Assembly (NCBI GenBank): GCA_021813405.1
Contig: JAKAKS010000024.1
Location: 1-53,641, forward strand
DNA from: Nitrospirota bacterium
Lineage (GTDB): Bacteria > Nitrospirota > Thermodesulfovibrionia > Thermodesulfovibrionales > JdFR-88
Length of the DNA stretch: 53,641 bases
Reading direction: 5' to 3'
The position numbers and the translations under genes are program-made. Shown piece by piece: positions 443-30,626 of the stretch. Within the stretch, counting starts at the first letter, position 1. Each line of letters starts with the position of its first letter. The notes under the pieces are model-generated. The model saw only the letters and a list, made by a program, of their open reading frames with translations, searched no databases and was not told the origin of the DNA.

Positions 443-780
443 TTGTTTTTTAACTTACGAGCAGGGTTAGCTTCTTTCACTCTTGATACATTTGCCCAAT
501 GCCAGTTTGCTTATCTGCTTTTTTCGCGGGCGGTGTTCGGCTCCGTTAGTCCGAGTCTCGAAAGGCCCCGTTCTTTCAAATCCTGCGGCGCGGCTCAAAC
601 GATTACGGCAAACGGCCAACGCCGCGTCCCGCCTAAGACGGGACTCCGCCCGGACTCGGTCGCGGGAAAAAACTCCGCGAGTTAAGTGAAATGAAATTTA
701 ATTATTTCAGATGTCTCGGCCACTGCGCGAAACCGCCCGCTTTGCCCGGTACGTTGTCGCAAGGCGCGAAAAGTCCGGCC

Positions 781-805
781 TGAAAAATGTTAAAAGTCGC
801 TTCCC
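781..805. repeat. Prophage left terminal inverted repeat
   Basis: Starts TGAAAAATG and continues through TTAAAAGTCGCTTCCC. The reverse complement matches 29608-29631 over 22 bp, with one extra A near the tip. The terminal TG and the matching CA at the other end are the hallmark of Mu-type transposition ends. Confidence 0.75.
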
Positions 806-941: not shown

Positions 942-1433
942 CTAACTTAGGCTCCATGTCACCGTAACAACCCAGGTGGTCCCGCTTGCCTTGGTTCCCC
1001 ACCCGCTGCCGCCGTTCGTTGTACGGTTAAGGCAGATGCTGCTCGATGAATTCTTGACGACGATCTCGTTCCAGGCGTAATTTGCGGAGCTGCTGCCGAA
1101 TGACGCCTGGAATTGCACAGAGGCGCTTGACGGCGTAGTAGGATATCCACCAGCCAGGCCTACATAGGTTTTATTTGTTGTGGCCTGCAAATCCGTCTGT
1201 GATGCCGCAGGGGCGGTATTGTTGTCGCCCACGCCGATCTCGGCATCGGTGGCATTGAAAGCGGTGCCTCCCGCGCCGGTGAAAAGCTTCAACATCTCGG
1301 TTAGCCCGGTCGTGAGGCCGAGGTTTTCGCACTCGATTGCCTCAGACGGTTCGTCCACGCCAGGGACCAACCCCTCGGCATATTTCTCCACCAGGAAAAC
1401 GCCTTTGACTTTTACGCCTTCTTTAAATTTCAT
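942..1433 (-). CDS. Putative phage tail-associated structural protein
   Basis: This 163-residue protein is the last gene of the late operon. It starts at an ATG behind AAGGAG. The N-terminal third (KEGVKVKGVF, then an acidic stretch) leads into a Gly/Ser/Thr/Asn-rich segment containing IGVGDNNTAPAASQTDL, a composition typical of small phage fibre or decoration proteins that carry a 'GVGTGTTAPA' type motif. The position after the tape-measure and holin genes fits an adsorption or fibre-like role, but no full-length fibre or tail-tip gene is present. The exact function is unknown. Confidence 0.7.
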   Translation of the reverse strand: MKFKEGVKVKGVFLVEKYAEGLVPGVDEPSEAIECENLGLTTGLTEMLKLFTGAGGTAFNATDAEIGVGDNNTAPAASQTDLQATTNKTYVGLAGGYPTTPSSASVQFQASFGSSSANYAWNEIVVKNSSSSICLNRTTNGGSGWGTKASGTTWVVTVTWSLS

Positions 1434-1561: not shown

Positions 1562-1849
1562 TTACGCAGCCGGTTTACTCTGGTCCGGCGTGGCCGCAGT
1601 CGGAGGGAATATTACCGCCGCCGTATCGTCAATGATGTCCGATACTATGGGGGCCAGCTTGTCCCACGTATTCTTTTGGCCGCCAGTCGAACTCTGATCG
1701 ATCTGGTTTATCACGCCCTGGATAGTTCCGGTGACGAACTGTTTCTTGTCCGCCCCGGAGGACTGTTTCCAGTGGAAAAGCCCCTCAGCGATCTTTACGA
1801 GCTGCGGAATGGCACTTTCCACCAGGCTGATGATGCCTAAAGTAGTCAT
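1562..1849 (-). CDS. Hypothetical phage protein, 95 aa
   Basis: Starts at ATG with AGGAGG about ten bases upstream. The sequence is mildly amphipathic (TTLGIISLVESAIPQLVKIAEG...) with an Ala/Pro-rich C-terminal tail, and has no transmembrane segment or known motif that I recognise. It sits next to the holin-like gene, in the place where many siphophages carry small lysis or tail-tip accessory proteins. No function is assigned. Confidence 0.65.
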   Translation of the reverse strand: MTTLGIISLVESAIPQLVKIAEGLFHWKQSSGADKKQFVTGTIQGVINQIDQSSTGGQKNTWDKLAPIVSDIIDDTAAVIFPPTAATPDQSKPAA

Positions 1850-2077: not shown

Positions 2078-2500
2078 TCATACGTAATCTCTGTCGAAAG
2101 CCGCCTGGAACTCGATGCCGTAGATCGCGGTGGTCTTCGTGATAACGAGGAGCCGGACGTCCACCGGCTTAAGCTCCTGCATCGCGAGGCCGAAATCCTT
2201 GTACGCAAGAGCGGGCAGCACATTATTTAAAAGCACATACGCGCCCGTGTTCGGGTCCGTCCTTACGGCCTCGTTTACGTCCAGCGCCGTCCGGAGGTTC
2301 TTTGCACACACAAGTACGGTAAAGGACGCCGTTTCCAGCCAGGTCTTCGTATCAACCCACTCGTACTTTGAGCCGCTATAGGCAACAAAGGAAGCGGGGA
2401 ACTGGATAGGAAGCTGCTCGACCTCCCCGGCCATCTCCCCGGCGTAGGTCTTTACCACCTTGAATATGCCCAGCCCCTGAGGACCTGTTTGCGAGCCCAT
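2078..2500 (-). CDS. Mu gp37-like protein (DUF1834)
   Basis: The 140-residue sequence has the pattern of the DUF1834 family (Mu gp37): an N-terminal KTYAGE..., a central ELPIQFPASFVAYSG-like strand region, and a C-terminal segment ending YGIEFQAAFDRDY. In Mu the homologue lies near head-tail connector and sheath genes and is thought to be structural. Here it lies downstream of the tape measure rather than upstream of the tail tube, which is an unusual order. Confidence 0.75.
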   Translation of the reverse strand: MGSQTGPQGLGIFKVVKTYAGEMAGEVEQLPIQFPASFVAYSGSKYEWVDTKTWLETASFTVLVCAKNLRTALDVNEAVRTDPNTGAYVLLNNVLPALAYKDFGLAMQELKPVDVRLLVITKTTAIYGIEFQAAFDRDYV

Positions 2501-4770: not shown

Positions 4771-5073
4771 TTACTCTCTCCCCGCCTCCCTTGGCCTGGT
4801 TAAAGCTTTCACCTCACGCTCAACTCTCGCCAGCATCTTCAAATCCTCCAAGGATACGGCAAACGTCTTCAGGATGATCGGGGCCGCCCCCAGTTCCTTC
4901 AGGCCAGTTAAAAGCATGCGTATGTCCTGGAGCCTTTGCGCATCTGGCGTAAGCGGCGGGATCGGGCAGCCCTGCGGCGTTTTGCAGGGCGGCTCTATCT
5001 CGTCCACTTCTTCTATGCTTTCGCACGTTTCGCAATGCACACCCGGATTGTCTAAGCGCCACCGGATGTGCAT
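4771..5073 (-). CDS. Tail assembly chaperone, downstream (T-like) frame
   Basis: This 100-residue frame overlaps the end of the upstream chaperone gene by 22 bases in the -1 frame. Its own ATG (5073) has no obvious independent need: the slippery heptamer at 5079-5085 would join it to the upstream frame and give a product of about 224 residues. It carries four Cys (CETC...PPCKTPQGCP), so the transframe tail may bind a metal. The C-terminal part is helical and highly charged. By analogy with lambda G/GT, the fusion would bridge tail tube subunits and the tape measure. Confidence 0.85.
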   Translation of the reverse strand: MHIRWRLDNPGVHCETCESIEEVDEIEPPCKTPQGCPIPPLTPDAQRLQDIRMLLTGLKELGAAPIILKTFAVSLEDLKMLARVEREVKALTRPREAGRE

Positions 5074-5085
5074 AAGGAGTTTTTT
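5035..5085 (-). promoter_or_regulatory. Programmed -1 ribosomal frameshift signal
   Basis: Read on the minus strand, the zero frame is TTA AAA AAC, giving the slippery heptamer A_AAA_AAC at 5085-5079. After a 5-nt spacer comes a 12-bp stem, ATGCACATCCGG (5073-5062) pairing with CCGGGTGTGCAT (5046-5035), with one U-G pair and a 15-nt loop. An AGGGGGAG Shine-Dalgarno-like stretch sits just upstream. Shifting -1 continues directly into the 4771-5073 frame. Confidence 0.88.
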
Positions 5086-5444
5086 AAGGTCTCCCCCTGC
5101 TTCTTCTTCATCAGCGCCCGGATGTCATTGCACGTCTCGTTTACCAGCTTGAAGAACTCATGGCAGCGCGTCATAAGGAAATCGCAGTTTTCGGGCGTGC
5201 ACGGAAAATCCTGGCCGTCCTTCACGATGCCGCGCCAGCCGCGCACGACGGCCCTGCCTATAAGCCTGGCGCTTTCGATGGAATCAAAAATTTCGGTATT
5301 CTTGTCCAGGTCCCATTTGCGCTTCATGGATTGCCTGGCTATTGCCTGAGATTCCTCCCTGGAGAGATAACGGAGGGTGACGAATGCGTCCTCGCCGAAA
5401 GGGACCTCTACAACGTAATCGTCGGAGAGTGCGGAGATGTCCAT
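5052..5444 (-). CDS. Tail assembly chaperone, upstream (G-like) frame
   Basis: This 130-residue protein lies between the tail tube and tape-measure genes, where tail assembly chaperones always sit. It begins MDISALSDDYVVEVPFGEDAFVTLRYLS and is mostly helical. The last eleven codons overlap the next frame, and the -1 frameshift signal lies at codons 120-122. Both the short and the transframe forms are probably needed for tail assembly. The start overlaps the stop of the 40-residue gene by one base, which implies translational coupling. Confidence 0.85.
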   Translation of the reverse strand: MDISALSDDYVVEVPFGEDAFVTLRYLSREESQAIARQSMKRKWDLDKNTEIFDSIESARLIGRAVVRGWRGIVKDGQDFPCTPENCDFLMTRCHEFFKLVNETCNDIRALMKKKQGETLKNSLCTSGGA

Positions 5445-5606: not shown

Positions 5607-6650
5607 TTAACTCGTTAATACGTTCGCGCTTTGCTGATTGACGACATTGATCTGAAAGGGAGCCGTCACTCCGGTCATGCCGGCAGGGGCCGAGGGGCAT
5701 CCCAGGGCCACGAACTCAAGCGGGCTTTCCATGATCCCTTGTTTTACCGGCAAGTCCGCGCTGGTGATCTGGAGGTTAGGTAGCTGGATTTGGAAGCTCC
5801 GGTTATACGGGCTTGCGATCTGTTTGCCCGTAAACGTAAGGTCCATTTTCTTTTGCTGCGTGTTATCCCAGTCCGCAAACATCTGCTGGACGTTCGAGGT
5901 ATAGCGCGGGAATGTGAGCTTCAATGTCACCCCTGGCAGGCCGTCGCTGGATGGCTCGTCTATATTGTTAAACCCGGCCACGGTATAAAGCCCCTTCATC
6001 TTCCGCTTGAACGTAAGCTCGAACGAAGACGGATAGATTGCGTTTGCGGAGGCCAGCGCAACATCTCCCTGATTGTTCAGTCGGTAAACGCCCTGGGAAA
6101 AGAGGACGCGGTTGCTTGTCTCCATGTATGTCACGTTCGCAAACGTAGAGAGCGTGTTTATGGCAGACCCCGTGATGCGGTCGTACGCGATCAGGTCAAA
6201 GGATATCTCCACGGGCTTGCCGATATCGCCTTTGATCGTGAAGCCGGAAACTTTTACAGACGTATATTCGTCTATATTGACCGTATTGTCCTGGATCAGC
6301 GTGGCGAAATATCCACTGAGGCTGTTTGCCAGGAGGAAGCTTTGCGCATACGCCGTTGTAGCTCCCTGCTGCGCGGGCGCGCCGGCCACGGAGCCCATTG
6401 CCAGGGCTATAAGCAGATCGAGAGAGTCGTAGCGCAGGTACATCGGCAGTGCGCCGGAGCACTCGATCTCAGCGTTTACGGCGTCCTGCGGGAAATATGT
6501 GCCGAGCGAATCGTCAACGTAGTTTTTTCTTTTTTTCTTAATGCTGTGCGGTTTAATAAGAACGCCATTGCTTGCGCCGCAGGCAACGGCTGTGCCCCAC
6601 GCTGTGGCCCTCTTTACCGCCGCTTTTAATTCAACTCCGGTTACGGACAT
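5607..6650 (-). CDS. Phage major tail tube protein
   Basis: This 347-residue protein resembles siphovirus tail tube proteins: it begins MSVTGVELKAAVKRATAWGTAVACG and contains the beta-rich core SVKVSGFTIKGDIGKPVEISFDLIAYDRITGSA, then a second sheet region (SSFELTFKRKMKG, VTLKLTFPRYTSN). It would polymerise as hexameric rings around the tape measure. It lies directly upstream of the tail assembly chaperones, as expected. It is the largest structural protein of the region and should not be mistaken for the missing capsid protein. Confidence 0.85.
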   Translation of the reverse strand: MSVTGVELKAAVKRATAWGTAVACGASNGVLIKPHSIKKKRKNYVDDSLGTYFPQDAVNAEIECSGALPMYLRYDSLDLLIALAMGSVAGAPAQQGATTAYAQSFLLANSLSGYFATLIQDNTVNIDEYTSVKVSGFTIKGDIGKPVEISFDLIAYDRITGSAINTLSTFANVTYMETSNRVLFSQGVYRLNNQGDVALASANAIYPSSFELTFKRKMKGLYTVAGFNNIDEPSSDGLPGVTLKLTFPRYTSNVQQMFADWDNTQQKKMDLTFTGKQIASPYNRSFQIQLPNLQITSADLPVKQGIMESPLEFVALGCPSAPAGMTGVTAPFQINVVNQQSANVLTS

Positions 6651-6653
6651 TGC

Positions 6654-6851
6654 TTATTCCCCTTTCTCGATGGAAACTGCATCAGCTCCGGCGGCGTCGT
6701 CGGCGTGGCCGGATTCGCCGGGCGCATCAGGCCCGATTTTTTCAAAAACCTCTTCCCCGAAGTGCTCCGGCTCGATGTCGTATTCCTCGCCGGCCACCAA
6801 TCCCAAGCCCGAGAGCGCATGCACGCCGTTTACTTTGGCTTTCACTCTCAT
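6654..6851 (-). CDS. Small phage protein, 65 aa
   Basis: Starts at the ATG that overlaps the preceding stop codon (ATGA). The N-terminus MRVKAKVNGVHALSGLGLVAGEEYDIEP resembles the small SH3-like beta-barrel proteins often found between head and tail genes, and the C-terminus is acidic and Ala-rich. A head-tail joining or decoration role is possible from its position but unproven. Confidence 0.65.
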   Translation of the reverse strand: MRVKAKVNGVHALSGLGLVAGEEYDIEPEHFGEEVFEKIGPDAPGESGHADDAAGADAVSIEKGE

Positions 6852-7324
6852 TGCTCCATACCTCCAAACGTGCATTGCACGGTGATCTCGTTCCCGACGC
6901 CGCATCCGCTGTCACAGCGGCCCTGCCACCACTCGCTTGGGTCTCCGGAGAAGAAAAATGCCCACGTGGTTTGATCGCCGCTTACGGTATGCGATACATC
7001 GTTTGTGAACCCGGTGGAATTCGAGACGGGAGAGCCTTGGAGAATAAATACCCGCGATGCGGTCCCGTTCACCTGGGTAAAAGCGCACTTGCCATAGCCG
7101 ACGGGAAAACCGAGATCGAGCGCCGGGGCACTGGTTGAAACGGCGTTGAAAGGCCCCATGGTTATCGAGCCGGACGGCGGAACGGCGGACGGCAGCCGGA
7201 GCCACTCGCCGTCGCGGAGCTGCTGGGAACTGTCCACCGGAATTGCTGGCGCGGACATCACGCCGGCCGCAGCCATGGCTGCCATGCCCAGGACAATGCC
7301 TATGCCAATCAAAAGCGTTTTCAT
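6848..7324 (-). CDS. Signal-peptide-bearing protein within the head-tail module
   Basis: This 158-residue protein opens with a clear Sec signal (MKTLLIGIGIVLGMAAMAAAG) and predicted cleavage after Ala. The rest is rich in Ser, Gly and Val, with Cys residues in the C-terminal half (GRCDSGCGVGN, VQCTF). A periplasmic or secreted protein between the gpG-like and tail tube genes is unusual for a phage structural operon. It overlaps both neighbours by ATGA. The function is unknown; it might be a cargo or exclusion protein. Confidence 0.7.
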   Translation of the reverse strand: MKTLLIGIGIVLGMAAMAAAGVMSAPAIPVDSSQQLRDGEWLRLPSAVPPSGSITMGPFNAVSTSAPALDLGFPVGYGKCAFTQVNGTASRVFILQGSPVSNSTGFTNDVSHTVSGDQTTWAFFFSGDPSEWWQGRCDSGCGVGNEITVQCTFGGMEQ

Positions 7325-7785
7325 TTGAACAGCTCCGGTTTTTTTGCCGAGAGTTCAAGCAACGCTTCCTGGTATGACGGGCGCTCCGCCTCGCTGAAAT
7401 TGCTCATATGGTCGACCACGGCCTTTTCACGGTCTATGGCCTTAAGAAGCTCGCCGGCCGCGTTGAATATCTCCTGATCGTGTTGCTGCCCGGCCCTGTC
7501 CCTTATCGCTTCAAGCGCAGGCACCCACAGCATGCCGCCTTTCCCCATGGGGTAATGGAAATAACCTTTCGTGTTTTTGTTAACGGACGGATCGACGCCC
7601 AGGTGCATCTTGTCATAGCGCGCCCAGTCCGCCTCGTCCGGCTTTGTGTTGTCGCCGGGACTCATCCCCAGAATCGAGTTTTCTTCCTGTGGCGATATGG
7701 ACCACTTCCCCGAATGCACTACGCGCCCCTCATGGATCATGTTGAGCGCGTTGTTAAACCCGTTTTGATTAAGCCTTTTGCTCAT
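7321..7785 (-). CDS. Hypothetical phage protein, 154 aa
   Basis: A soluble protein overlapping its neighbours by ATGA. The segment GYFHYPMGKGGMLWVPALEAIRDRAGQQ followed by an AAGELLKAIDREK helix vaguely recalls the C-terminal region found next to Mu-type capsid proteases (DUF6582-like), but the catalytic protease part is absent. I would not assign it. It occupies the position where a protease or scaffold and capsid genes are expected. Confidence 0.65.
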   Translation of the reverse strand: MSKRLNQNGFNNALNMIHEGRVVHSGKWSISPQEENSILGMSPGDNTKPDEADWARYDKMHLGVDPSVNKNTKGYFHYPMGKGGMLWVPALEAIRDRAGQQHDQEIFNAAGELLKAIDREKAVVDHMSNFSEAERPSYQEALLELSAKKPELFK

Positions 7786-8051
7786 AAGCCTTTTGTCCTC
7801 CAGTCCTCCGGTAATTTAATGCCGTCGTTTTCCAGCTCCGGCGTTTCCTCGAAATAAACGGTCTGCGGCAGCAGCTCCAGAAACTCTTTCATGTATTCAA
7901 ACGGGGCCTGGTCTCCGCATTGCGCAAGAAACTCCAGGAACGCCGTCATGCCCATGCCTATCTTTTCCTGCGCGGGCGTGATGATGCCCTGCCGCTTCAG
8001 CTCTTCCACGAACAGCGCCGCCTCGAACTTTTTCCAGGTCTTTTCGCTCAT
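7782..8051 (-). CDS. Hypothetical phage protein, 89 aa
   Basis: Starts MSEKTWKKFEAALFVEELKRQG at an ATG overlapping the previous stop. It is mostly helical with a PAQEKIGMGMTAFLEFL core and an acidic C-terminus. No recognised domain. It is coupled to the gpG-like gene upstream. Confidence 0.65.
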   Translation of the reverse strand: MSEKTWKKFEAALFVEELKRQGIITPAQEKIGMGMTAFLEFLAQCGDQAPFEYMKEFLELLPQTVYFEETPELENDGIKLPEDWRTKGL

Positions 8052-8491
8052 CTGTGCCCCGCCAGATATTCGGTGACGGCGTTTTCATAGGTCCCCTGCG
8101 GGTTCCAGGGAATGAGCGCACGGTCGATAAACCTGTTCGGCTTCTGTCCCTTCACGCTCCTGAACGGATGTGGCGCGCCGGGCCAGAAGAGGGCTTTTGC
8201 GGTGACGGGGACAATCGGCGTGCCGTGAGGGCCGTATATGCCGGTGCCCTCATAAACGTACTTGCCATAAGGCGCGGTTATCTTGATAACGCCGTTCAGG
8301 CCGTCTATTACATCGCCCTGAGTGCTGTTTACCAGGTTGCCGGTGCGCACCGGCTCCTCCGCCTTTATCTCCCTCTCGCCGACCATAACCGTTTTTGTCA
8401 TGGCGAAAAGTTCCGCCGCCTTAATGTCGCCCGCTATCCCGGCTATCACCGTTCCCATATCCGGTGTCATGCGTATGATGAATGAGATCAT
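8048..8491 (-). CDS. gpG/gp10-like virion morphogenesis protein
   Basis: This 147-residue protein has the tail-completion/HK97 gp10-like pattern: EEPVRTGNLVNSTQ, then YGKYVYEGTGIYGPHGTPIVP and a C-terminal NRFIDRAL. In Mu-like phages gpG follows MuF and helps join head and tail. The ATG at 8491 is chosen because it overlaps the portal gene stop (ATGA); an upstream in-frame ATG at 8509 lies inside the portal gene. Confidence 0.75.
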   Translation of the reverse strand: MISFIIRMTPDMGTVIAGIAGDIKAAELFAMTKTVMVGEREIKAEEPVRTGNLVNSTQGDVIDGLNGVIKITAPYGKYVYEGTGIYGPHGTPIVPVTAKALFWPGAPHPFRSVKGQKPNRFIDRALIPWNPQGTYENAVTEYLAGHR

Positions 8492-10710
8492 GCGATCACC
8501 ACGTAGCACCGGCAGAACGGATGAAAGGGCGGCGTGAGCATGTCGTTATTTTTCAGGTACTCCGAATAATCATCAGGCGACATACTGGCCTGCTTTTGCA
8601 TTTCGTCATAGGCGTCGGAAACATCTATCGGCTCTTCCGAGTCAACGATGCTCACGCACTCCTCGCACGCGCCCGGCAGCGTCTGGACCCGGAGCTGCTT
8701 TATCCCCGCCTTGTACGCCTGGTTGATATGCGCCCAGTTTCTTGCGCGCATCACGCCGGTGTCGACGATGCGCCGTATCTGGCCTTCCGAGAGGTTGACC
8801 AGGTTGTTTTCGAGGATTTTTGCGAAATCCTGAATTCCCGCCATTGAGCCTCTGCCGAAAAGGCCGTCCCCGCCCTCTATGTACTGCTTCGTCAGGAAGT
8901 CCACAAGGCTCGCGTTCACATCCGGATTGTTTATGAACTTCGAGAGATAAAAGCTGTCAAGCTGATTGAGGAAATCGGACGTGCGGAGGTCCGCCCCGCC
9001 GAATACCACATCTATATTGGGCGACAGACCGCCCGTTGTGCTGTACCACTGGTACATCTGCGACGCCAGGTCGCTGGCCGCAGCCTGGTCTATCTTCACA
9101 AGCTCATCGCCCACGATGCCCTGAATCTGACTGACAAACTTGGCCTGAGTAGGCGGCGTCTTCTGCGAGGCAAGCCACGCGGCAACCTTTTCCGCAGCAT
9201 CCTGCGAGAGCGCGGCTATTGCCGGGGCAATGCGCTCCATGTACTGATCGATCCAGTTTTGATCGTCCGCGCCCGGCTCCGCGAAGCTGTGATGATGGCC
9301 GCAGGCGCATTTGCCTTCACGGAAAGTCAATCTGGATTCCCGCCTGCGCGGGGATGACGAAAAGGACGAACCGCCGCTGCTGTCACTTGCCGCCTGGGAA
9401 CCGCCCTTTATGGGCTTTGCAAGCTTGTCGCCGGGCTGAGGCGCGGGAACGTCATAAGTCTCATAGAAGTAGCTCTGAGGAATCTCTACGCCGGAATTGA
9501 TGAGAATCTGGTCACGCTCAGCCAGCGCCTGCGTGTCCTGGGCCGCCATCTTGCGCCAGAACTTCGGGTAGGCGACCTGCGGGCCGAAATTGTAATCAAC
9601 GATCCACCTGATTAATTGCCTGTTCAGCGCGTTCGAGAGGGCATCCGAATCCGCTTTCGCGTATTCGGCGCGGACTTCGTCATGCACCCTGGCAGCCGCA
9701 AGGCCGCTGGAGCCGCGCCCGGAGTGGCCAGCCTCGCTTGTAAGCGTTTGCCCTAAAATTATCTTGGCGATCTCTGCGTTCATGAAGCTGCAAAGCGTCT
9801 CATAGTTTTGCATGCTGCCGTTGCGCTGCGCCTCCAGGAAGGCCACCTGCATCGTGTCCGGAATTTTTATGGCGGTCTCCTGCTGAATGGCATCCAGCGC
9901 CGCCAGGAGCGCGTCCTGCTGCTCTTTGGGCGTACCGGACGGATATTTACCGACAGCCGTTGGCGAGCCGAATTTCTCCGAAAACACCATCCAGAACTTG
10001 ATAGCGTTTTTCTTGAACCACACCGGCCAGTAAAGCGATGAGCCTAATCCGTCGCCATACGGCGATCCGTTATCGCCGCCGTAGACGAAGAGCTGAAACT
10101 TTTTAGGCGGCACAGGCGCGCCCTCAACTTGCGCGTCTCTGGTGATTAGGCGCAGTTCGCGACGCAGCCCGAATGCAAACCGCCTTGAAGGCCGGGCGAT
10201 CATCTCCTTTACCCAGACGTTGCCCGACGAATACTCCCACATGATCTCGGACACCTTGAAGCCAAGCAGCACGCCTTGCAGCAGGTTGAAGCAGGCGCGG
10301 TCAAAATCGAAGTTCAAAAGCGCCTGCTTCACAAAATTCCCAATCTGCACGTCCTTGCGCTTATTGCTGGCCGGCTGCACTTCCCATTCCTTGCCACTCA
10401 CGGCCAGGCGGCGCGTCTGCAAATGTGACAGCACCTGCGGGTCCCTTTGCAGCATCTCAAAAATTTCGAGATTGTTGTCAAAGCCGCCGCCCACGTTCCG
10501 GAGCGTCTTGTCCGGATTGATAAGCTTCTTGCCTACGTAATACGCCCAGAAAGGGTCCGATATCGCACTGGCTATCTCATCCGTTACGGGTTTTTTGTCC
10601 GCTTGCGGATAATTCTTCGGCTGATCGAGAGCGTCCTCAATTATCCGCGCAACGTTTTGCGGCGTGGTTACTTGGGCGTCTTGCTCAGGCATGTCTTTTT
10701 CTTCAGGCAT
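8488..10710 (-). CDS. Portal protein fused to MuF-like head morphogenesis protein
   Basis: This 740-residue protein combines two usually separate proteins. Residues about 15-435 are a Mu gp29-type portal (DUF935): WAYYVGKKL, KEWEVQPAS, FKVSEIMWEY, ILGQTLTSEAGHSGRGS. The remainder has a CACGHHH cluster (468-474) and an SPP1 gp7/MuF-like C-terminal domain (about 600-740) with RIVDTGVMRARNWAHI and a C-terminal HPFCRC. Mu splits these into gp29 and gp30. Residues 451-460 (SSSPRRRESR) are encoded by a REP-like palindrome inserted in frame near the junction. The portal forms the DNA gate of the head, and MuF is a minor head protein. Confidence 0.9.
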   Translation of the reverse strand: MPEEKDMPEQDAQVTTPQNVARIIEDALDQPKNYPQADKKPVTDEIASAISDPFWAYYVGKKLINPDKTLRNVGGGFDNNLEIFEMLQRDPQVLSHLQTRRLAVSGKEWEVQPASNKRKDVQIGNFVKQALLNFDFDRACFNLLQGVLLGFKVSEIMWEYSSGNVWVKEMIARPSRRFAFGLRRELRLITRDAQVEGAPVPPKKFQLFVYGGDNGSPYGDGLGSSLYWPVWFKKNAIKFWMVFSEKFGSPTAVGKYPSGTPKEQQDALLAALDAIQQETAIKIPDTMQVAFLEAQRNGSMQNYETLCSFMNAEIAKIILGQTLTSEAGHSGRGSSGLAAARVHDEVRAEYAKADSDALSNALNRQLIRWIVDYNFGPQVAYPKFWRKMAAQDTQALAERDQILINSGVEIPQSYFYETYDVPAPQPGDKLAKPIKGGSQAASDSSGGSSFSSSPRRRESRLTFREGKCACGHHHSFAEPGADDQNWIDQYMERIAPAIAALSQDAAEKVAAWLASQKTPPTQAKFVSQIQGIVGDELVKIDQAAASDLASQMYQWYSTTGGLSPNIDVVFGGADLRTSDFLNQLDSFYLSKFINNPDVNASLVDFLTKQYIEGGDGLFGRGSMAGIQDFAKILENNLVNLSEGQIRRIVDTGVMRARNWAHINQAYKAGIKQLRVQTLPGACEECVSIVDSEEPIDVSDAYDEMQKQASMSPDDYSEYLKNNDMLTPPFHPFCRCYVVIA
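9332..9358. repeat. REP-like palindrome inside the portal gene
   Basis: ATTCCCGC/GCGGGGAT arms with a CTGC loop. It is translated as SSSPRRRESR, a peptide known as the signature of such palindromes inside genes, and the reading frame is kept. Confidence 0.85.
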
Positions 10711-10900: not shown

Positions 10901-11135
10901 TAAGAATCCTCCGTATCTGGCGCTCGCCTATCCTGTACTTGGTAATAAGCTGTTTAACCTTCACGCCATTGTCGTATTCGGCGCGGATGATGTTGTCACG
11001 GTTTGAAACCATTACGATTGCGATAGTGGGCACGTAAAGAACGCCGCCCCCGAAGTGCTCGCAGAACTTCTTCGCGTTATCGGCCCCTATCACGCCTGCG
11101 ATCTCGTCAAACGTGCGCCTTCCGGGAAACGCCAT
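10890..11135 (-). CDS. Mor/C-family transcription activator-like protein
   Basis: This 81-residue protein has the Mor/C pattern: IAGVIGADNAKKFCEHFGGGVLYVPT, then RDNIIRAEYDNGVKVKQLITKYRIGERQIRRIL, a C-terminal helix-turn-helix. Mor and C of Mu switch on middle and late promoters as dimers. This copy lies between terminase and portal, inside the late operon, while a second Mor-like gene is at 14614-14919. It could be a late-acting C-type activator or a feedback regulator. Confidence 0.7.
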   Translation of the reverse strand: MAFPGRRTFDEIAGVIGADNAKKFCEHFGGGVLYVPTIAIVMVSNRDNIIRAEYDNGVKVKQLITKYRIGERQIRRILNAK

Positions 11136-12469
11136 CAGTACCCTCTCATTCCGCGCGCCGTAGAACCTAAAGCAAACGCGCCCATTTCGTTAAACCGCCT
11201 GCCGCGCCTGGTCGCCTCAAACTCGATAAGAGGCACGGGGCCGCTTGCGGCGTGAATGCCGAGAGCAGCCGCCCAGAACCTGTCCGCGTGGCCCAGCTCC
11301 GTCCTCTCCGCGTCAAAGCGGATATTTCCCGCCGAGGTAATGAACCGTTTCACCGTGTGGAAATCCTCCCGGATATCTCTATCAGCAGGAATGCGGACCT
11401 GCCTGTCCTCGAACTTGCGCCGCATCGTGACGGCCAAATCCTCTTTGACCTTGCCGGTGAATACGACGGGCTCGACCATAGGGCCGAAACTCAGGGCCGC
11501 TTCCTCGGCGAGCTGCGCGCCGATGCCGGTGGCGTCTATACAGCAGCGCCTGATGGGAATGCTGCTGGAGCTATCCAGAAGCGAGTCAAGAAAATCCCTT
11601 TGCGCGGCAAACGGCGCGTTCCTCATCTCTTTGACCATGCGCGTCCAGAAAACGTCTCCCACGCGCTCCCACAACCACAGGATCGTCCGGTCGGCTTTCC
11701 TGCCGATATCCACGCCCAGGTAAAATTCTCCTCCGGCCAGATCGCCGGGGTCTGCCGTGGCCTTCTCGTTCTCGCAGGCGATGATAAGCTCATAGGTAAG
11801 ATAGGCCGTGGTTTCGTCCAGGAACTGGCATTCGTATTCCTGTGCCCACGCATCAGGATCGCCGATGTTCTTTCGCAAAGCGTCTACATCCGCTTTCAGC
11901 CCCTCACGGACGGCCGTATAGATGTCCGTCATATGCTTTGACAGATCACCCTCGGTCCACAGGCGGTAGAACATATTGCTTTTGCCTTTTGTGGTAGAGG
12001 ATATCCGGACCTTGAAACCTCCCGTAACGGTCGGATACATGGCCTTCCATATCTCGCTTGAGTCCCTCTGGAACGCGAACTCGTCCAGGAAGATATTCCC
12101 GGAAAATCCGCGCGCGGTGTCCGGGTTGGCAGGAAGGCTGATTATTCTGGAGCCGTTGGGCAGCTCCACCTCTTCCTTTGTTGCGTTCTCGGCCTGAATG
12201 ATGTTGTCGCTTACTACCTGGAGTACGCGCAGATGGGAAAAGACCTTGCGCATTACCTCCTTGGACTGGCGCTCTGAAGACGAAAGGATCATGTTGTCGC
12301 ATTTGGTCTCCAGGGCTTCGATCACGGCCTCCAGCGAGAGCGTGAACGATTTGCCTATCTGCCTTGAAGCAAGCCATATCTTCAGGAGCGATTTATCGTT
12401 GATCCAACGCCGCTGATACGGGCGAAGGACTGTGGCGACAGCTTTCGGCGCTTTACCTTTCGATGCCAT
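11135..12469 (-). CDS. Large terminase subunit (Mu gp28-like)
   Basis: The 444-residue packaging motor has an N-terminal ATPase with a Walker A-like ASRQIGKS (34-41) and Walker B NIFLDEFAF (125-133, D129/E130). A C-terminal RNase H-like nuclease starts LGVDIGRKADRT (D254) and continues with CCIDATGIGAQLAEEA. Length and order match Mu-like headful-packaging terminases. It is preceded by the small subunit, which overlaps it by 17 bases. Confidence 0.93.
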   Translation of the reverse strand: MASKGKAPKAVATVLRPYQRRWINDKSLLKIWLASRQIGKSFTLSLEAVIEALETKCDNMILSSSERQSKEVMRKVFSHLRVLQVVSDNIIQAENATKEEVELPNGSRIISLPANPDTARGFSGNIFLDEFAFQRDSSEIWKAMYPTVTGGFKVRISSTTKGKSNMFYRLWTEGDLSKHMTDIYTAVREGLKADVDALRKNIGDPDAWAQEYECQFLDETTAYLTYELIIACENEKATADPGDLAGGEFYLGVDIGRKADRTILWLWERVGDVFWTRMVKEMRNAPFAAQRDFLDSLLDSSSSIPIRRCCIDATGIGAQLAEEAALSFGPMVEPVVFTGKVKEDLAVTMRRKFEDRQVRIPADRDIREDFHTVKRFITSAGNIRFDAERTELGHADRFWAAALGIHAASGPVPLIEFEATRRGRRFNEMGAFALGSTARGMRGY

Positions 12470-12908
12470 ATTCCGCCCTCATGATCTCGTCGGCCTTTTT
12501 GCGCAGAGTGGCAGGGCTCTTTGCGTCCACCCCTTTCGCCTTCCGGGAAAGCTCCACTACCGTCTTATAGAGGTTCGTCAGCGCGTAGGTTGCCTGGTGG
12601 TCCATCTGGTTAATAGGGAGGCTGTCCAGATATTCCTCGTAGCGCTCGATCTGCCTGAGCAGCTTTTTCATCATCTTCTGCTCAAGCGAGAGCTGGCAGT
12701 CCTCGGCCTCCTGCCGCTCAGCGTCCGCCTGTTTCATCCGCTCCTCGAAGCGGTAATCCTTTATCCACTTGTCCAGCGAGGGGCGGCTGAGCTTGAGGCC
12801 GCGCTTTTCCAGCTCCTTTTGCGTCTTCGCCACGTTGCCGCCCAGGAGGCAGTAAACCCCGTAAGCCATCTCGATGTTCTGCCTTATCGCCTTGCCTTTC
12901 CTGTCCAT
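12453..12908 (-). CDS. Small terminase subunit-like (DUF1804-type)
   Basis: This 151-residue, largely helical, charged protein begins with a helix-turn-helix-like region (IRQNIEMAYGVYCLLGGNVAKTQKELEKRG...LSRPSLDKWIKDYRF) that would bind DNA. A long coiled-coil-prone helix follows (about 60-110). It lies immediately upstream of and overlaps the large terminase gene, matching Mu gp27/DUF1804 small terminases. Confidence 0.8.
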   Translation of the reverse strand: MDRKGKAIRQNIEMAYGVYCLLGGNVAKTQKELEKRGLKLSRPSLDKWIKDYRFEERMKQADAERQEAEDCQLSLEQKMMKKLLRQIERYEEYLDSLPINQMDHQATYALTNLYKTVVELSRKAKGVDAKSPATLRKKADEIMRAEYGIER

Positions 12909-14613: not shown

Positions 14614-14919
14614 TCATGATGCAAAGAGTGAGTTTTGCCGGTCGTCTTCTTTCTTCTCGTCAAGCCAGCGGTAAATGGTCCGCTTGGCCACACCTACAAC
14701 CAGCGCCAGCTCCGCGTGGTTGTTGCCTTTGAAATTCGCCAGGACGTATTCCTTCCGTTTTTTCTCCAGGACGGAATCCATCGGCCGAATGTAAACGGCC
14801 TGCTTGGGGAGCTTCTCGGAAAGAAGGATCGCTACCTCCATGCCGCACATCTCGGCGATCATGGCCATATCGCCGGGCAAGTCTTCGGCCTTCATGCCTT
14901 CGAACCATTTGGCTTTCAT
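14614..14919 (-). CDS. Mor/C-family activator of late transcription
   Basis: The 101-residue protein shows the Mor pattern: PGDMAMIAEMCGMEVAILLSEKLPKQAVYIRP (dimerisation part), then RKEYVLANFKGNNHAELALVVGVAKRTIYRWL (helix-turn-helix). It is the last gene before the late promoter region, the classical position of the Mu activator C, so it probably activates the operon beginning at 14322. Start at ATG 14919 with GAGG eight bases upstream. Confidence 0.82.
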   Translation of the reverse strand: MKAKWFEGMKAEDLPGDMAMIAEMCGMEVAILLSEKLPKQAVYIRPMDSVLEKKRKEYVLANFKGNNHAELALVVGVAKRTIYRWLDEKKEDDRQNSLFAS

Positions 14920-15371: not shown

Positions 15372-15758
15372 TTAAGCGGCATTTTCTGCCTCCTTCATCT
15401 GTCTTTTGATAGCCCTGGCTTCTTCAAGGCGCTTAAGCCCTTTACTGCGGCATTCATTCCGCCAGTTAAGAAGTGCTGCCGCCTTGGCCAGCTTGGTGCT
15501 CCCGGCGTATACCTTCACGGCCTTGCACATATTTTTAAGCTCAACGCTTTTGAATGCCTCGACCAGCTCTTTCCTGTTGCTGAAATTTTTGATAGCGGTC
15601 CTTACATACCAGGCGGCAAGAATCCTTTCGGTGATTTTGCTTTTCGTGCCGCTATGAGGGAGCACCATTAAATAACAAAGTGCGCGCAATTCGCTTGCCG
15701 AACGGCCTTTAAGATTGCGCTTGGACGGGACAACATACAAAATGTTTTTCCGCTTCAT
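15372..15758 (-). CDS. Helical, highly basic phage protein (SAP-like region)
   Basis: This 128-residue protein contains GRSASELRALCYLMVLPHSGTKSKITERILAAW, which resembles a SAP DNA-binding motif, followed by a Lys/Arg-rich helical tail. A nucleic-acid-binding role is plausible. It overlaps the upstream gene by ATGA. No firm family assignment. Confidence 0.65.
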   Translation of the reverse strand: MKRKNILYVVPSKRNLKGRSASELRALCYLMVLPHSGTKSKITERILAAWYVRTAIKNFSNRKELVEAFKSVELKNMCKAVKVYAGSTKLAKAAALLNWRNECRSKGLKRLEEARAIKRQMKEAENAA

Positions 15759-15958
15759 CTCAGCTTCTTCCCGCAGACAAAGCAGTAATTGACTTCCATC
15801 TGATACATTCCCAACTGCGGGATGTTCAGCCGCCCGGTAAGAGCCTTCAGGAAGATGCAGCAGGCGTTCTCCGGAAGGTCCTCGCGCTTTACGTCGGAAC
15901 GCAGATCTATAACTTCCTTCCTGGACGGGTTAAGATCATAGATATCTGCGCGTTTCAA
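15755..15958 (-). CDS. Small protein with a C-terminal zinc knuckle
   Basis: The 67-residue protein starts at TTG overlapping the gemA stop (TTGA) with AGGAGG seven bases upstream. It ends NYCFVCGKKLR, one CxxC knuckle, with another Cys pair (ACC) in the middle. Possibly zinc-binding. No function is known. Confidence 0.6.
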   Translation of the reverse strand: MKRADIYDLNPSRKEVIDLRSDVKREDLPENACCIFLKALTGRLNIPQLGMYQMEVNYCFVCGKKLR

Positions 15959-16428
15959 AACGGGTCCTCCTGGTTCAGGGCCTCGCGCCGCTGGTGCTGG
16001 GTATACGAGCCTTTGGCCTGCATGCGGAGAATGGTCTCCTTTATGCGCTTCAAATGCCATAAGCTCTCGATCCAATCGAAGTGATCGATCTCGCCGTATA
16101 TCTTTTTAGCCAGGGCAAGCAGGGGACGCTCATATCCCTGGCCCCAGCGCTTCAGCGCGTATTCCTTGATCTCCTCTTTCAGCCCCTTCAGGCTGGAGTT
16201 GTGGTGATAGACCTCGCCTCCCTTACGCGGGCTCTTTGCGGATTTCGGCCTCCAGCCCATCTCCTTGAATTCCGTAAGGACGGCATCCGCCTCTGTCTCG
16301 GTAAGCCGCTGCGACGTAAAGGTGTGGCCATGCTTGAAAAGTATGGCCTTGTATTGGTCTTTACTCAGCTTCAGTTCCTTGGCGGCAATGTGGAGCTTCG
16401 CCTGCTGCCCGCGCGTAATGTCGCTCAT
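15955..16428 (-). CDS. GemA-like regulatory protein (Mu gp16, DUF1018)
   Basis: The 157-residue sequence fits the Mu gp16/GemA family: ITRGQQAKLHIAAKELKLSKDQYKAIL at the start, then LTETEADAVLTEFKEMGWRP and a C-terminal helical domain with ALKRWGQGYERPLLALAKKIYG. In Mu it modulates host gene expression and gyrase-related supercoiling. It stands before the Mor-like gene in the middle region, as expected. Confidence 0.88.
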   Translation of the reverse strand: MSDITRGQQAKLHIAAKELKLSKDQYKAILFKHGHTFTSQRLTETEADAVLTEFKEMGWRPKSAKSPRKGGEVYHHNSSLKGLKEEIKEYALKRWGQGYERPLLALAKKIYGEIDHFDWIESLWHLKRIKETILRMQAKGSYTQHQRREALNQEDPF

Positions 16429-19391: not shown

Positions 19392-19615
19392 GCCGCCTCC
19401 TCCGTTTCGACAACCCAGAGTTCTTCCCATTTCATGTTTCTCTGGCCGAGCTTTTTCACAAGCTGGGCGAAAAACTTTGTATGCCCAAATAGCTTCTCTG
19501 CTGCCGCCTTAACAGCCGCCTTTTCGCTGCTCGTGCGGCTTACAGTGATATTCATGCCCTTTACGCGCGCATAGTGGGTTTGTCCATCCGAGCGCACTAA
19601 AACATCGTATTGCAT
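19388..19615 (-). CDS. Hypothetical phage protein, 75 aa
   Basis: MQYDVLVRSDGQTHYARVKGMNITVS... followed by a basic helix (SSEKAAVKAAAEKLFG). A small alpha/beta protein, possibly nucleic-acid-binding. Overlaps the end of gam. Not recognised. Confidence 0.6.
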   Translation of the reverse strand: MQYDVLVRSDGQTHYARVKGMNITVSRTSSEKAAVKAAAEKLFGHTKFFAQLVKKLGQRNMKWEELWVVETEEAA

Positions 19616-20109
19616 GCCGCCTCCTCTGAAATCTTTTTGTAATCCACCTCATACCCGAAGGTCTCGCCGCTCTTTCTCTTCACGCCGACGGAGGCGAGGG
19701 TCTTGTCATCCAGCTTGTCCAGCGCGTCCTTGTCCGGGCTCTCTTTGATATGCAGGTACGAGGCCCCGAGCTTCTCGCGTATCTGCGCCACGGCCTTTTT
19801 AACGCTCGATATGATGAGCCTGGTGCTCTTCCGGAAAGAGACCGTCCCGAATGTGAGCTGCAAGGACTGCTTTGCGCCAAGGCCTTCCCGGTGCGCTTCC
19901 GTAAATACCTGCATCTCGGCCTCCAGCCTGGCGATCTCCGCGAGGAGAGGCTCGACCTTCTTTGCCGCGCTCGTTTTAGCGCGCATGATCTCGCCGTTCA
20001 TGGCATCTTCTATACAGTCGAATTCTATTCTCAGAAACCCGATGCGCCTGAGCGCCACGTCCACGTCCGCCCACGCCTTCATAGTGGGCACTACCTTTTT
20101 ACGTGCCAT
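19597..20109 (-). CDS. Gam-like host-nuclease inhibitor
   Basis: The 170-residue sequence fits the Mu Gam family: MARKKVVPTMKAWADVDVALRRIGFLRIEFDCIEDAMN at the start, a long coiled coil with LEAEMQVFTEAH, and a C-terminal TFGTVSFRKSTRLII...DYKKISEEA. Gam is a Ku-like protein that binds DNA ends and shields phage DNA from RecBCD-type exonucleases. It starts at ATG behind AGGAGG. It lies in the semi-essential early region, as in Mu. Confidence 0.9.
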   Translation of the reverse strand: MARKKVVPTMKAWADVDVALRRIGFLRIEFDCIEDAMNGEIMRAKTSAAKKVEPLLAEIARLEAEMQVFTEAHREGLGAKQSLQLTFGTVSFRKSTRLIISSVKKAVAQIREKLGASYLHIKESPDKDALDKLDDKTLASVGVKRKSGETFGYEVDYKKISEEAACNTMF

Positions 20110-21037: not shown

Positions 21038-21276
21038 GCCGCTACCTTCTTTTCCGTCAGCTTCGCCGCAATGCCGTCTATGTGCGTTGTAAGGCAATTC
21101 CTGCAACACAGATGGTTGTCGTAATCCTCCGGATTGAACGCCGGGATCGCCGGAACTATCATCAGCGTGACCAGGCCGTCCGTCTCCAGACACGCAATCT
21201 GGCGGCGCATGTAATAGCCGCCCTTTTTCACCTCGCGGCTGCATTCGTCGCAAACGTAAGGGTTGTCCTTTTTCAT
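21034..21276 (-). CDS. Zinc-finger-like early phage protein, 80 aa
   Basis: MKKDNPYVCDECSREVKKGGYYMRR... with CDEC near the N-terminus and CCRNC near residue 60 forms a treble-clef-like four-Cys site. It is coupled by ATGA to the MuB-like gene. DNA- or protein-binding role inferred. Confidence 0.65.
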   Translation of the reverse strand: MKKDNPYVCDECSREVKKGGYYMRRQIACLETDGLVTLMIVPAIPAFNPEDYDNHLCCRNCLTTHIDGIAAKLTEKKVAA

Positions 21277-22529
21277 AGCTGGTTTATGACCTCCGCGTTT
21301 ACAATGGGCTCGCCAAGTTCCGCAGCCAGGTTCATGGCCTTCACGATGTAATTGTTCACGGTAAGCGGATACGCCGTGGAGGCCGTCCTTTCCTTCGCGT
21401 CCCGCGTGGTCAGCCTTTTGGAGAGCGCGGTAATGGCGTCCTTCGTGATGATCTCGCCTATCTCCGCCCCGGCCAACTTGAACTTCAGCTCCAGGTAATC
21501 ACCCATGTTGCCGTTCAGGCCGCTTATGTGCGCGATCTGGAAACGCCTGGTGACCTCGCGCATCTCGAAGTGCATGCGCTCGTCAAAGAGATCGCCAAGC
21601 TCCGGCTGCCCGATGAGGATTATCCCGATCACCTTCCTGTAACCAAGCTCGATCTCGGAAAAGCGCTTCAGGTACTTGAGCACGGGCACCGATAGATCGT
21701 GCGCCTCCTCGACCATGAGGACCGTATCGCCGCCTGCCTTTGCGCGGTCCGTCAGCAGTTTGATTACTTGGCGCGCCTTGGCCTCCCGGTCCTGCTTCGG
21801 GGTTTGTCCGAAGTCCATGATAACGGCGTTGCATAGGTGCTCCACGGTGAGTTTCTTCTTGTCGATGATCTGCGGGTAGCAGACCTTTATCTGCTCGCCG
21901 CTTTTTTCCAGCTCCATCATCACCTTTTTGCGGATGGTGCTCTTGCCGCTGCCCACCTCGCCGATAACGGCGATGCAGCCCCGATGCTTGGCGGCGTCCA
22001 GCATGGCGGCCTGTATGTACCTGTGCTCGTCCGACATGAATACGTCCGACTCTTTTGCCACATCATCAATAAACGGGTTCTTGAACAGCTGGAACTGCTT
22101 TTTTGCGTCCATGCTCAGCATCTCTCTGTCCACCTCCATGATTATTTCGTGCGGATTACCCGGCACGACTGCCTCGCGCCTGCGCACTTCCATCTGCCTT
22201 TTCCCTAAATCCACCGGCATCGTCTGCTTTCCAACCGTAATGCCGAAATCGCTGACGGGCCTCCACAGGTCCACAAGCCCCGCGTTAAGGGCCTTAAGCC
22301 ATCTCATCGCCTCCGGGTTTTGTTGCACGTAACTTTCCACCGTGGACATAAACTCGTCCTTATCTACCCGTGAAGGCAGGATGCCCGTGCTAAGGGTAAG
22401 ATTGATCGTGGATTTGCCGTAACCTGTGCGGCGGGATATTTCGCCCTGGGACATGCCCCCTACCTGGGCAACAAGAGCCCGGAGCAGAATCGGATTGTAC
22501 GGCGCTTTCGCTGCTAAACTGCCTGCCAC
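21273..22529 (-). CDS. MuB-like AAA+ ATPase (transposition target selector)
   Basis: The 418-residue protein starts at GTG 22529, with GGAGG about eight bases upstream. An N-terminal helix-turn-helix (about 26-49: MSQGEISRRTGYGKSTINLTL) precedes an AAA+ core with Walker A GEVGSGKST (190-198) and Walker B TVLMVEEAHD (269-278). The C-terminal part is helical. In Mu, MuB binds target DNA, delivers it to MuA and gives target immunity. It is longer than Mu MuB and resembles ExeA-type ATPases, as in many Mu-like prophages. Confidence 0.9.
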   Translation of the reverse strand: MAGSLAAKAPYNPILLRALVAQVGGMSQGEISRRTGYGKSTINLTLSTGILPSRVDKDEFMSTVESYVQQNPEAMRWLKALNAGLVDLWRPVSDFGITVGKQTMPVDLGKRQMEVRRREAVVPGNPHEIIMEVDREMLSMDAKKQFQLFKNPFIDDVAKESDVFMSDEHRYIQAAMLDAAKHRGCIAVIGEVGSGKSTIRKKVMMELEKSGEQIKVCYPQIIDKKKLTVEHLCNAVIMDFGQTPKQDREAKARQVIKLLTDRAKAGGDTVLMVEEAHDLSVPVLKYLKRFSEIELGYRKVIGIILIGQPELGDLFDERMHFEMREVTRRFQIAHISGLNGNMGDYLELKFKLAGAEIGEIITKDAITALSKRLTTRDAKERTASTAYPLTVNNYIVKAMNLAAELGEPIVNAEVINQL

Positions 22530-22579
22530 CTCTATCACCCTCCATGAGTGAATTTCTGCCCGGCGCGGAAACCGCGCCT

Positions 22580-26635: not shown

Positions 26636-26678
26636 GATTAATCCATATTTATGAACGTTGTCAAGATAAAAGTTCATA
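26636..26678 (-). promoter_or_regulatory. Early promoter with putative repressor operator
   Basis: On the minus strand, TTGACA (26664-26659) and TTAATC (26641-26636) are 17 bases apart. The inverted repeat TATGAAC (26650-26656) / GTTCATA (26672-26678) flanks the -35 box, and a related TATGAAT half lies at 26692-26698. This suggests an operator where the CI-like repressor blocks early transcription. Confidence 0.5.
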
Positions 26679-26692
26679 TTGGAATCACTTAT

Positions 26693-27535
26693 ATGAATAA
26701 CTTTTCTGGAGTAATAGGGCGTTTAAAGAGTTGCTTAAGCCTGAAGCACGATGCCGATATTGCTGATTTATTAGGCTTAAGCAAAACTGCCTTTGCTGAG
26801 AGGAAAAGAAGAGAGAGCATTCCTACGGACAAAATAGCCTTATTGTGCAAGCGAGAATCCATAAATATGGACTGGCTTTTAACTGGCAAGGGATGGATGT
26901 ACTCGCCTGACCACCCCGAGACAGCTGAGGCATGGATGCGGGCACAGCTTATGGAGCGCGTCGAAAAGGTCGTGATAGTCACTTACCGCCCAATGGGAGG
27001 CGGCGGAATGGCAAACGGCTTTGTCGTTAAGAAAGCGACCGGCATTATTTCCATGAGCGGCGACGAAACACGCTCAGGCTATAAAGGCACAGGACCGTAT
27101 GCGTACCGGAATATTCTGAAAATATTGGAAGACAAGAACTATGAAGTAGCGCAAGTAAAAATACTCGACCGTGAGGAATCCGGCAAGCTGGATTCCTCTG
27201 ATCTTACTGGCTATATCGAACGCACCGCACAACCCGGTATAGTCCAGGATGAATTAATTGACCTGGATTACGAGGGAAACAGGATTTTTAGTTCTAAAAG
27301 ACCGGGCGCTCCTACTGCACCTGAAATTGGGGCAAATAAGCAGGTTTTCGATCTCGGCCTGATGAAAGAAATAATACAAACCGTCGAGGAGATATTCCAG
27401 AAAGAGCAGCTTCACCTTCCGCCCGCCAAAAAGGCCGAGCTTATCGTGCTTATATATGAAGAGATCGCCGAGGACCGTTCTAAAATATCATCCCTGCCTG
27501 GCAGGGTTTTGAAACTCGTAAAACTGGCGTCATAA
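26693..27535 (+). CDS. CI-like phage repressor
   Basis: The 280-residue protein has an N-terminal helix-turn-helix of the phage CI family: VIGRLKSCLSLKHDADIADLLGLSKTAFAERKRRESIPTDKIALLCKRESINMDWLLTGKG. The C-terminal part lacks an S24 self-cleavage domain that I can recognise and carries an unusual Gly-rich region (MGGGGMANGF) and KGTGPYAYRNILKILEDKNYEVAQVKIL. It maintains lysogeny, divergent from Ner. I prefer ATG 26693; ATG 26651 would start inside the operator. Confidence 0.8.
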   Translation: MNNFSGVIGRLKSCLSLKHDADIADLLGLSKTAFAERKRRESIPTDKIALLCKRESINMDWLLTGKGWMYSPDHPETAEAWMRAQLMERVEKVVIVTYRPMGGGGMANGFVVKKATGIISMSGDETRSGYKGTGPYAYRNILKILEDKNYEVAQVKILDREESGKLDSSDLTGYIERTAQPGIVQDELIDLDYEGNRIFSSKRPGAPTAPEIGANKQVFDLGLMKEIIQTVEEIFQKEQLHLPPAKKAELIVLIYEEIAEDRSKISSLPGRVLKLVKLAS

Positions 27536-29607: not shown

Positions 29608-29631
29608 GGGAAGCGACTTTTAACATTTTCA
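29608..29631. repeat. Prophage right terminal inverted repeat
   Basis: GGGAAGCGACTTTTAACA then TTTTCA. It is the exact inverse of the left terminus over 22 bp and ends in CA. The next bases (AGGGG) do not match the five bases before the left end (CGGCC). Confidence 0.75.
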
Positions 29632-30614: not shown

Positions 30615-30626
30615 ATCTATGGAATT

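Follow-up and report, generated by a model that had tools for sequence, protein, structure and literature searches.

A Mu-like prophage with no capsid or tail-tip genes, and a gene-transfer-agent-like cluster as its candidate helper, in an uncultivated Nitrospirota bacterium

Introduction

Satellites can redirect the capsid assembly of their helper phages by means of scaffolds of their own, as described for CpmB of SaPI1 and Sid of P4 (PMC5644958, PMC7552001), CpmB acting on the capsid of 80alpha (PMC5644958). For AH14a and AH14b, two prophages per cell of which one has a complete structural gene set, a shared capsid has been proposed (PMC4936722), and in E. coli O157 Sakai, head-defective prophages were shown experimentally to be packaged by co-resident prophages (PMC2669165). 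Here, we describe P1, a Mu-like element of 28,905 bp (~28.9 kb) with TG...CA termini, located at positions 755-29659 of a stretch of 53,641 nucleotides (G000:C10:1-53641, hereafter the window) from an uncultivated Nitrospirota bacterium, whose short-read metagenome-assembled genome (MAG) comprises 2.9 Mb in 56 contigs. We give an even chance to the reading that P1 is a Mu-like transposable prophage, still able to insert, that makes no virion alone and depends on a helper, either P2, a second and older virus-derived cluster in the same genome, or a related phage.

Most elements of the capsid-borrowing kind are either small islands poor in virion genes or islands that form capsids and take only tails from elsewhere. 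A Mu-like element keeping portal, terminase, and tail shaft without capsid and tip would reverse this usual arrangement.

Results

The capsid gap of P1 and the scaffold remnant

P1 is encoded on the minus strand, with the early genes toward the high-coordinate end (Table 1). It has the DDE transposase A and ATPase B of Mu-like elements, as well as TG...CA ends with end repeats and a duplication, and a Mu-type portal, MuF, gpG, GemA, Gam, and Mor were all found. The virion gene set is incomplete; protease, capsid, and tail tip are wanting, and P1 is therefore a Mu-like element and not a complete phage. No capsid or complete protease was matched in Pfam or PHROG searches of the P1 proteins, and these and homology searches found neither the protease half of the protease-scaffold gene I nor decoration, major capsid, gp36, or tail-tip genes. 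The two tail-tip genes closing the P2 cluster likewise have no counterpart in P1. The absence of recognizable capsid, protease, and tail-tip genes, claimed in a preliminary description of this stretch, is thus borne out.

Between gpG and the tail tube lie only frames of 89, 154, 158, and 83 amino acids (aa), most of them joined by ATGA-type overlaps. The preliminary description had seen the same gap with small frames only, but gave the last as 65 aa from a later start, the upstream ATG yielding 83 aa. Profile searches of the proteins at 6654-7785, which it had proposed as a check, found no capsid and resolved the 154-aa protein (p154) into a protease N-domain and a scaffold tail. p154 aligns with residues 2-109 of a head-maturation-protease family (412 aa), and its residues 1-117 resemble the N-terminal region of the PhiF3 and psiM100 head maturation protease, from methanogen phages (34%, E 7e-12). 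The 89-aa protein (scaf89) gave a weak match to positions 279-354 of another head-maturation-protease family. A scaffold profile was built from the C-terminal halves of the I proteins of 21 relatives, P1 excluded, and run against the 749 open frames of the window. It picked exactly two of them, scaf89 (E 7.1e-18, profile positions 82-166) and the end of p154 (E 1.6e-4, profile positions 172-208), which align to the profile in the correct order; the scaffold half of I therefore persists, in two pieces, and the protease half has been lost. By profile homology, scaf89 and the last ~35 residues of p154 make up the scaffold half of what is normally a protease-scaffold protein, and the split, scaffold-only frames are, on the same grounds, one scar, the remains of a protease-scaffold gene. 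The earlier claim of ATGA overlaps without scars thus holds for the overlaps at most junctions, but not for the I gene.

Downstream of the tape measure gene, P1 has only gp37, a small membrane protein, and the 95-aa and 163-aa proteins. Minor tail genes had been described as missing here, with only small frames left; this is correct for the tip genes, but gp37, a connector/tail-terminator homologue, is present and displaced. In P2 (gp37 at L010:8602-9048) and in the relatives, gp37 and its two downstream neighbors lie before the tube gene, while in P1 they follow the tape measure, the shifted group (gp37 at 2078-2500) occupying the spot where a tip gene would begin.

Relatives and distribution

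In related phages the gene order is portal/(MuF)/gpG, a ~350-aa I protein (protease and scaffold), decoration, a capsid of 311-335 aa, gp36, gp37, and then the tube. Four Mu-like siphophages of Nitrospirota (L107, which is IMG/VR UViG_3300025311_000216, the MAG loci L081 and L082, and L001 from IMG/VR) share with P1 the terminase, portal, gp37, 83-aa protein, tube, and chaperones. L107 further resembles P1 in MuA/MuB, and L001, L081, and L082 do so in gpG and in the portal with its MuF fusion. Unlike P1, all four carry protease-scaffold, decoration, and capsid genes (and gp36 where tested) in place of scaf89 and p154. gpG-containing viral contigs in a Mu-like context have, where long enough, a protease and capsid pair adjoining gpG. 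The capsid-less look of several gpG-containing viral contigs was refuted by the presence of a different Mu-type protease/capsid pair, and three more were set aside as gpG relatives in another context.

As complete relatives carry the capsid block at the position of the gap, a deletion occurred in P1. The comparison with related phages that had been suggested thus settles that there was a deletion, but not that it was recent; no relative is close enough to date it. p154, used as a marker of the lean layout, was found in none of the 175 other genomes of the order, and beyond its own genome it gave a single weak partial match among 396 genomes of the phylum. Scans of viral contigs using p154, scaf89, tape measure, and tube returned no relatives. 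With P1 missing from the sister species as well (see below), the earlier characterization as a stable lean layout is not supported.

A second virus-derived cluster, P2

A portal search led to P2 (G000 C18:16216-29589 and C50:1-3780; L010, L011), a cluster of roughly 16.5 kb that is split across the two contigs by a break within its portal gene. P2 encodes a terminase, a 427-aa portal without MuF, a protease-scaffold protein (phrog_976, E 5.5e-73), decoration, a capsid (phrog_1005, E 5.9e-79), gp36, gp37, tube, chaperones, a 279-aa tape measure, and tail-tip proteins of 247 and 1091 aa, as well as a peptidase endolysin and a divergent LuxR-type regulator. No transposase or integrase, MuF, or gpG was found in P2. 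It is the only other P1-homologous element in the genome, and its capsid gene is the sole one of its family there. Neither a second capsid gene nor a second tip gene was found anywhere in the genome, in which the general HK97 capsid model (PF05065) matched nothing. The proposed search for a capsid cluster elsewhere in the genome has thus turned up one, P2, which encodes every missing part.

The two elements are complementary in that all five gaps of P1 (protease, decoration, capsid, gp36, and tip) are encoded by P2, and the gaps of P2 (transposase, MuF, gpG, and a long tape measure) are all encoded by P1. Proteins common to both are 49-83% identical (p163/p164 83%, tube 81%, p158/p159 77%, portal 68%). 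P2 and its orthologue in the sister species (DBS2-1.bin64) resemble P1 in terminase, portal, gp37, p98, p159, tube, chaperones, tape-measure C-terminus, and p164; unlike P1, P2 has protease, capsid, decoration, gp36, and tail tip, a tape measure of only 279 aa, and a fixed position at one host locus. In siphophages, the C-terminus of the tape measure touches the tail tip. With tape-measure C-termini that are 54% identical, a P1 shaft on a P2 tip is therefore conceivable.

In the sister species, P2 (L033, L070, and L078) has the same cytochrome/Rieske/NrfD neighbors, and it shares both the truncation of the portal and the short tape measure with the copy described here. Between the two species, dN/dS was 0.063 for the capsid, 0.064 for the portal, 0.083 for the decoration protein, and 0.135 for the 247-aa tip protein (gene I was left out of this set), and the dS of P2 was like that of adjoining host genes. 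P2-like single-copy clusters were present in most searched members of the family. P2 is thus a virion gene cluster with vertical inheritance and purifying selection, free of integrase or transposase, as in a gene transfer agent (GTA). By these features it looks domesticated and GTA-like, and is a candidate new GTA lineage in Nitrospirota. In the searched open-access literature, where GTAs and Nitrospirota were named together in only two papers, we found no Nitrospirota GTA and no Mu-like capsid-less satellite. In two of the P2-like clusters (L041 of G005 and L045 of G004), no tape measure gene was found in the interval from gp37/tube to the tip genes; in L041 the tube gene was apparently not found either, as if the tail were further shortened.

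Borders, surroundings, and integrity of P1

The termini of P1 are flanked by copies of GTACGT, a direct repeat of 6 bp, unlike the 5 bp of Mu. This repeat came from a scan of a few hundred TG/CA combinations, in which a 6-bp repeat is expected by chance in ~1 in 20 by our own estimate; the ends are nevertheless convincing because the 22-bp inverted repeats are placed symmetrically, 29 and 30 bp inward from the respective termini. A second motif of 11 bp is common to both ends (at 833 and 29441). Ends at 781/29631, based on the inverted repeat alone, were dropped, as no direct repeats occur there and an outward shift gave 755/29659 with GTACGT. Both ends are inside the window, and the absent tail-tip genes are therefore not an effect of the contig edge. 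The contig break beside P1 is explained by positions 1-97 of the window, which read as the end of a RAYT-like transposase present in many copies. Dense REP-like repeats and RAYT-type transposase genes flank P1 on both sides (1-754 and 29660-30860), and similar ones occur in dozens of places in this genome and the sister species.

P1 is absent from the sister species (G001, same genus). There, the genes that flank P1, a spermidine-synthase-like gene (at the end of G000:C47) and yicC, lie ~1.8 kb or more apart on one contig with no P1 between them; the exact empty site is unreadable, as the P1 flanks consist of repeats that differ in that species.

Homologues in related phages are known for about 25 P1 genes, all of which are full length, which points to loss of modules and not to general decay, in agreement with the earlier view that P1 is not undergoing ongoing decay. 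In a nonsense test of 26 intact P1 genes, one substitution per site would produce an expected 543 nonsense mutations. No stop was observed in the counted genes, which, at the 5% level, caps neutral drift at ~0.55% for all genes and at 1.0% for the late ones. A drift of ~0.55% per site is small next to the divergence from the sister species (dS about 0.08-0.38); either the insertion or the capsid loss is therefore recent, or the genes have been maintained.

Table 1. Features of the P1 element in the window.
Feature	Position	Strand	Basis or remarks
P1, whole element	755-29659		TG and CA at the termini, each flanked by a 6-bp direct repeat; 22-bp inverted repeats lie 29/30 bp inward
Direct repeat GTACGT, left copy, putative target-site duplication	749-754		Flanks TG end
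Direct repeat GTACGT, right copy, putative target-site duplication	29660-29665		Flanks CA end
Terminal 22-bp inverted repeat, left, probable transposase-binding site	784-805		Perfect inverse match to 29608-29629
Terminal 22-bp inverted repeat, right	29608-29629		Perfect inverse match to 784-805
163-aa virion-type protein (p163)	942-1433	-	phrog_23653; 83% identical to P2 counterpart (p164)
95-aa protein	1562-1849	-	72% identical to P2 p98
gp37, tail terminator family, displaced behind tape measure	2078-2500	-	PF08873, E 7.7e-18; 66% to P2 gp37
Tape measure protein, 749 aa	2520-4769	-	PF10145; last 120 residues 54% identical to P2 short tape measure
Tail assembly chaperone-type protein 2, 100 aa	4771-5073	-	Position and homology to P2 t90 and L107
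Tail assembly chaperone-type protein 1, 130 aa, intact	5052-5444	-	Homologous P2 copy in same genome truncated
Tail tube protein	5607-6650	-	PF18906, E 5.5e-19; 81% identical to P2 tube
83-aa protein (p83), precedes tube gene	6654-6905	-	Likewise in capsid-bearing relatives L006, L082, L107
158-aa protein (p158), signal-like N-terminus	6848-7324	-	77% identical to P2 p159
p154	7321-7785	-	Residues 1-117 similar to psiM100/PhiF3 head maturation protease N-domain; last ~35 similar to I scaffold C-terminus
scaf89, free-standing scaffold domain of I protease-scaffold protein (P2_I residues ~236-322)	7782-8051	-	Profile built without P1, E 7.1e-18
gpG, tail completion/neck	8048-8509	-	phrog_5; 36-39% to L001, L081, L082
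Portal fused to MuF domain, 740 aa	8488-10710	-	PF06074, E 3.5e-108; full-length relatives L001, L081, L082
Terminase large subunit	11135-12469	-	PF03237, PF17289
gp27-like gene upstream of terminase, putative small subunit	12453-12908	-	Position; 69% to Mu-like prophage in G008
Mor-type late/middle activator	14614-14919	-	PF08765
GemA-like	15955-16428	-	PF06252
Mu Gam-like	19597-20109	-	PF07352, E 3.5e-31
MuB-like transposition protein	21273-22661	-	phrog_296, E 2.2e-42; AAA_22
MuA-like transposase	22580-24310	-	phrog_310, E 2.6e-56
CI-type repressor, divergent from early genes	26651-27535	+	PF07022

Among the remaining genes of P1, two adjacent ones in the right-end cargo (27547-28565) have a GDGNITAGRDVNI / GNNNTVAGRDVNI motif in common, and the pair gave no convincing match to defence families. 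A 128-aa protein of the middle region (15372-15758) has weak matches to SAP and to an effector-associated domain (EAD7). Some early genes have no assigned function.

Discussion

P1 is best filed as a helper-dependent or defective prophage and not as a proven satellite. Judged by its gene content, it has probably kept the capacity for packaging and for building a tail shaft, and borrowing of a capsid is possible. We infer that P1 depends on a helper; if it is packaged, this would be with P2 or a related phage. Genes essential for its own particle are wanting, as in satellites, and a candidate helper is present in the same cell in P2, which encodes every missing part but has a stop in a chaperone gene. 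The conservation of layout across strains that would mark a satellite was not observed, p154 being confined within the order to the P1 genome.

In the mechanism that we propose, P2 (or a related phage) would provide protease, capsid, decoration, gp36, and tail tip once late genes are switched on, and P1 would add its own portal, terminase, tail shaft, and long tape measure, the P2-type C-terminus of which could dock on the P2 tip. The protease-free scaffold pieces, scaf89 and p154, could guide how the borrowed shell is put together, in the manner of CpmB of SaPI1 on the 80alpha capsid; by homology they are candidate hijacking genes only.

Several points weigh against helper dependence. The lean layout occurs once, leaving selection for it conjectural. 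P2-type particles may be too small for the ~28.9 kb of P1. Satellites usually retain few virion genes, and the loss of a capsid with tail and portal kept is unusual and fits a plain deletion too. Furthermore, the first tail-assembly chaperone gene of P2 (L010:5949-6344) has a premature stop in this genome and is intact in the sister species; P2 may thus itself be failing, although P1 has an intact homologue.

Nearly as likely as a helper-packaged P1 is a recently crippled one, an ordinary defective prophage derived from a normal Mu-like phage by two recent deletions (from protease to gp36, and of the tail tip), never packaged and bound to decay. We regard this as a real possibility, if short of an even chance. 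It agrees with the capsid block that complete relatives have at the gap, with a layout seen in no other of the 175 genomes of the order, and with the absence from the sister species, which fits a recent insertion; the scaffold fragment also resembles a remnant. On the other hand, no other P1 gene is broken, the frames that are left overlap from start to stop, the drift, if any, has been brief, and the re-ordering of gp37 and its neighbors into intact frames is not explained by simple deletion.

Helper dependence might also take the form of a Mu-like satellite parasitising the putatively domesticated, GTA-type P2, with scaffold, portal, tape measure, and neck of its own replacing those of P2, and the capsid, protease, and tip of P2 being taken; we consider this unlikely. 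If true, the satellite would turn a host-serving particle into a vehicle for itself.

The two elements could instead be one split particle-making system, with MuF, gpG, and the long tape measure contributed by P1. Known GTAs are likewise encoded at several loci, and the gene content is complementary, P2 being without these three components. The sister species, however, keeps P2 in the absence of P1, its tape measure just as short and its portal likewise truncated, and P1 owns a transposase and ends, which makes a split system very unlikely.

Less probable still is that an unrecognized P1 protein is a capsid, even though p154 is unique to P1 and some early genes are of unassigned function. p158 and p83 occur alongside true capsid genes in relatives and neither is therefore a stand-in capsid, and scaf89 is a scaffold domain. 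p154 combines the protease N-domain with a scaffold tail, and its structure, predicted without an alignment, is mainly helical, at a low confidence (pLDDT 62) that is too poor for a fold search. No small P1 protein is plausible as an HK97 capsid.

The retained tail shaft genes and the lost capsid might suggest a tailocin-like or other headless phage-derived particle, but this is hardly conceivable, since P1 has kept terminase, portal, MuF, and transposase and lost the tail tip, which is the reverse of a tailocin. An assembly artefact, with the capsid block dropped or placed on another contig, might be suspected in a short-read MAG of 56 contigs with a contig break near the tail-side end, but is equally far-fetched given start-stop overlaps spanning the junctions, both P1 ends in one contig, and no second capsid or tip gene elsewhere in the genome.

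If the capsids of P1 do come from a vertically conserved GTA-like cluster, it would follow that domesticated particles are open to renewed parasitism. Even if P1 is merely crippled, the comparison has revealed an apparently unreported GTA-like element that is widespread in a Nitrospirota family.

Among the described systems, SaPI1 with CpmB and P4 with Sid resemble P1 in having a short scaffold-type protein and no capsid gene of their own, and CpmB, like the P1 scaffold pieces, has a C-terminal tail resembling the scaffold of the helper. SaPIs and P4 differ in being integrase elements without tail shaft or portal genes, and any redirection of capsid size by P1 would be conjecture. The pair AH14a/AH14b is like P1/P2 in that two prophages share a cell and only one has the full structural set; however, AH14b has an integrase and no structural genes, whereas P1 is Mu-like and has kept about half of them. 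The head-defective prophages of O157 Sakai, like P1, are missing head genes, but they are lambdoid and share nearly identical morphogenesis genes with their partners, and their packaging was shown by experiment.

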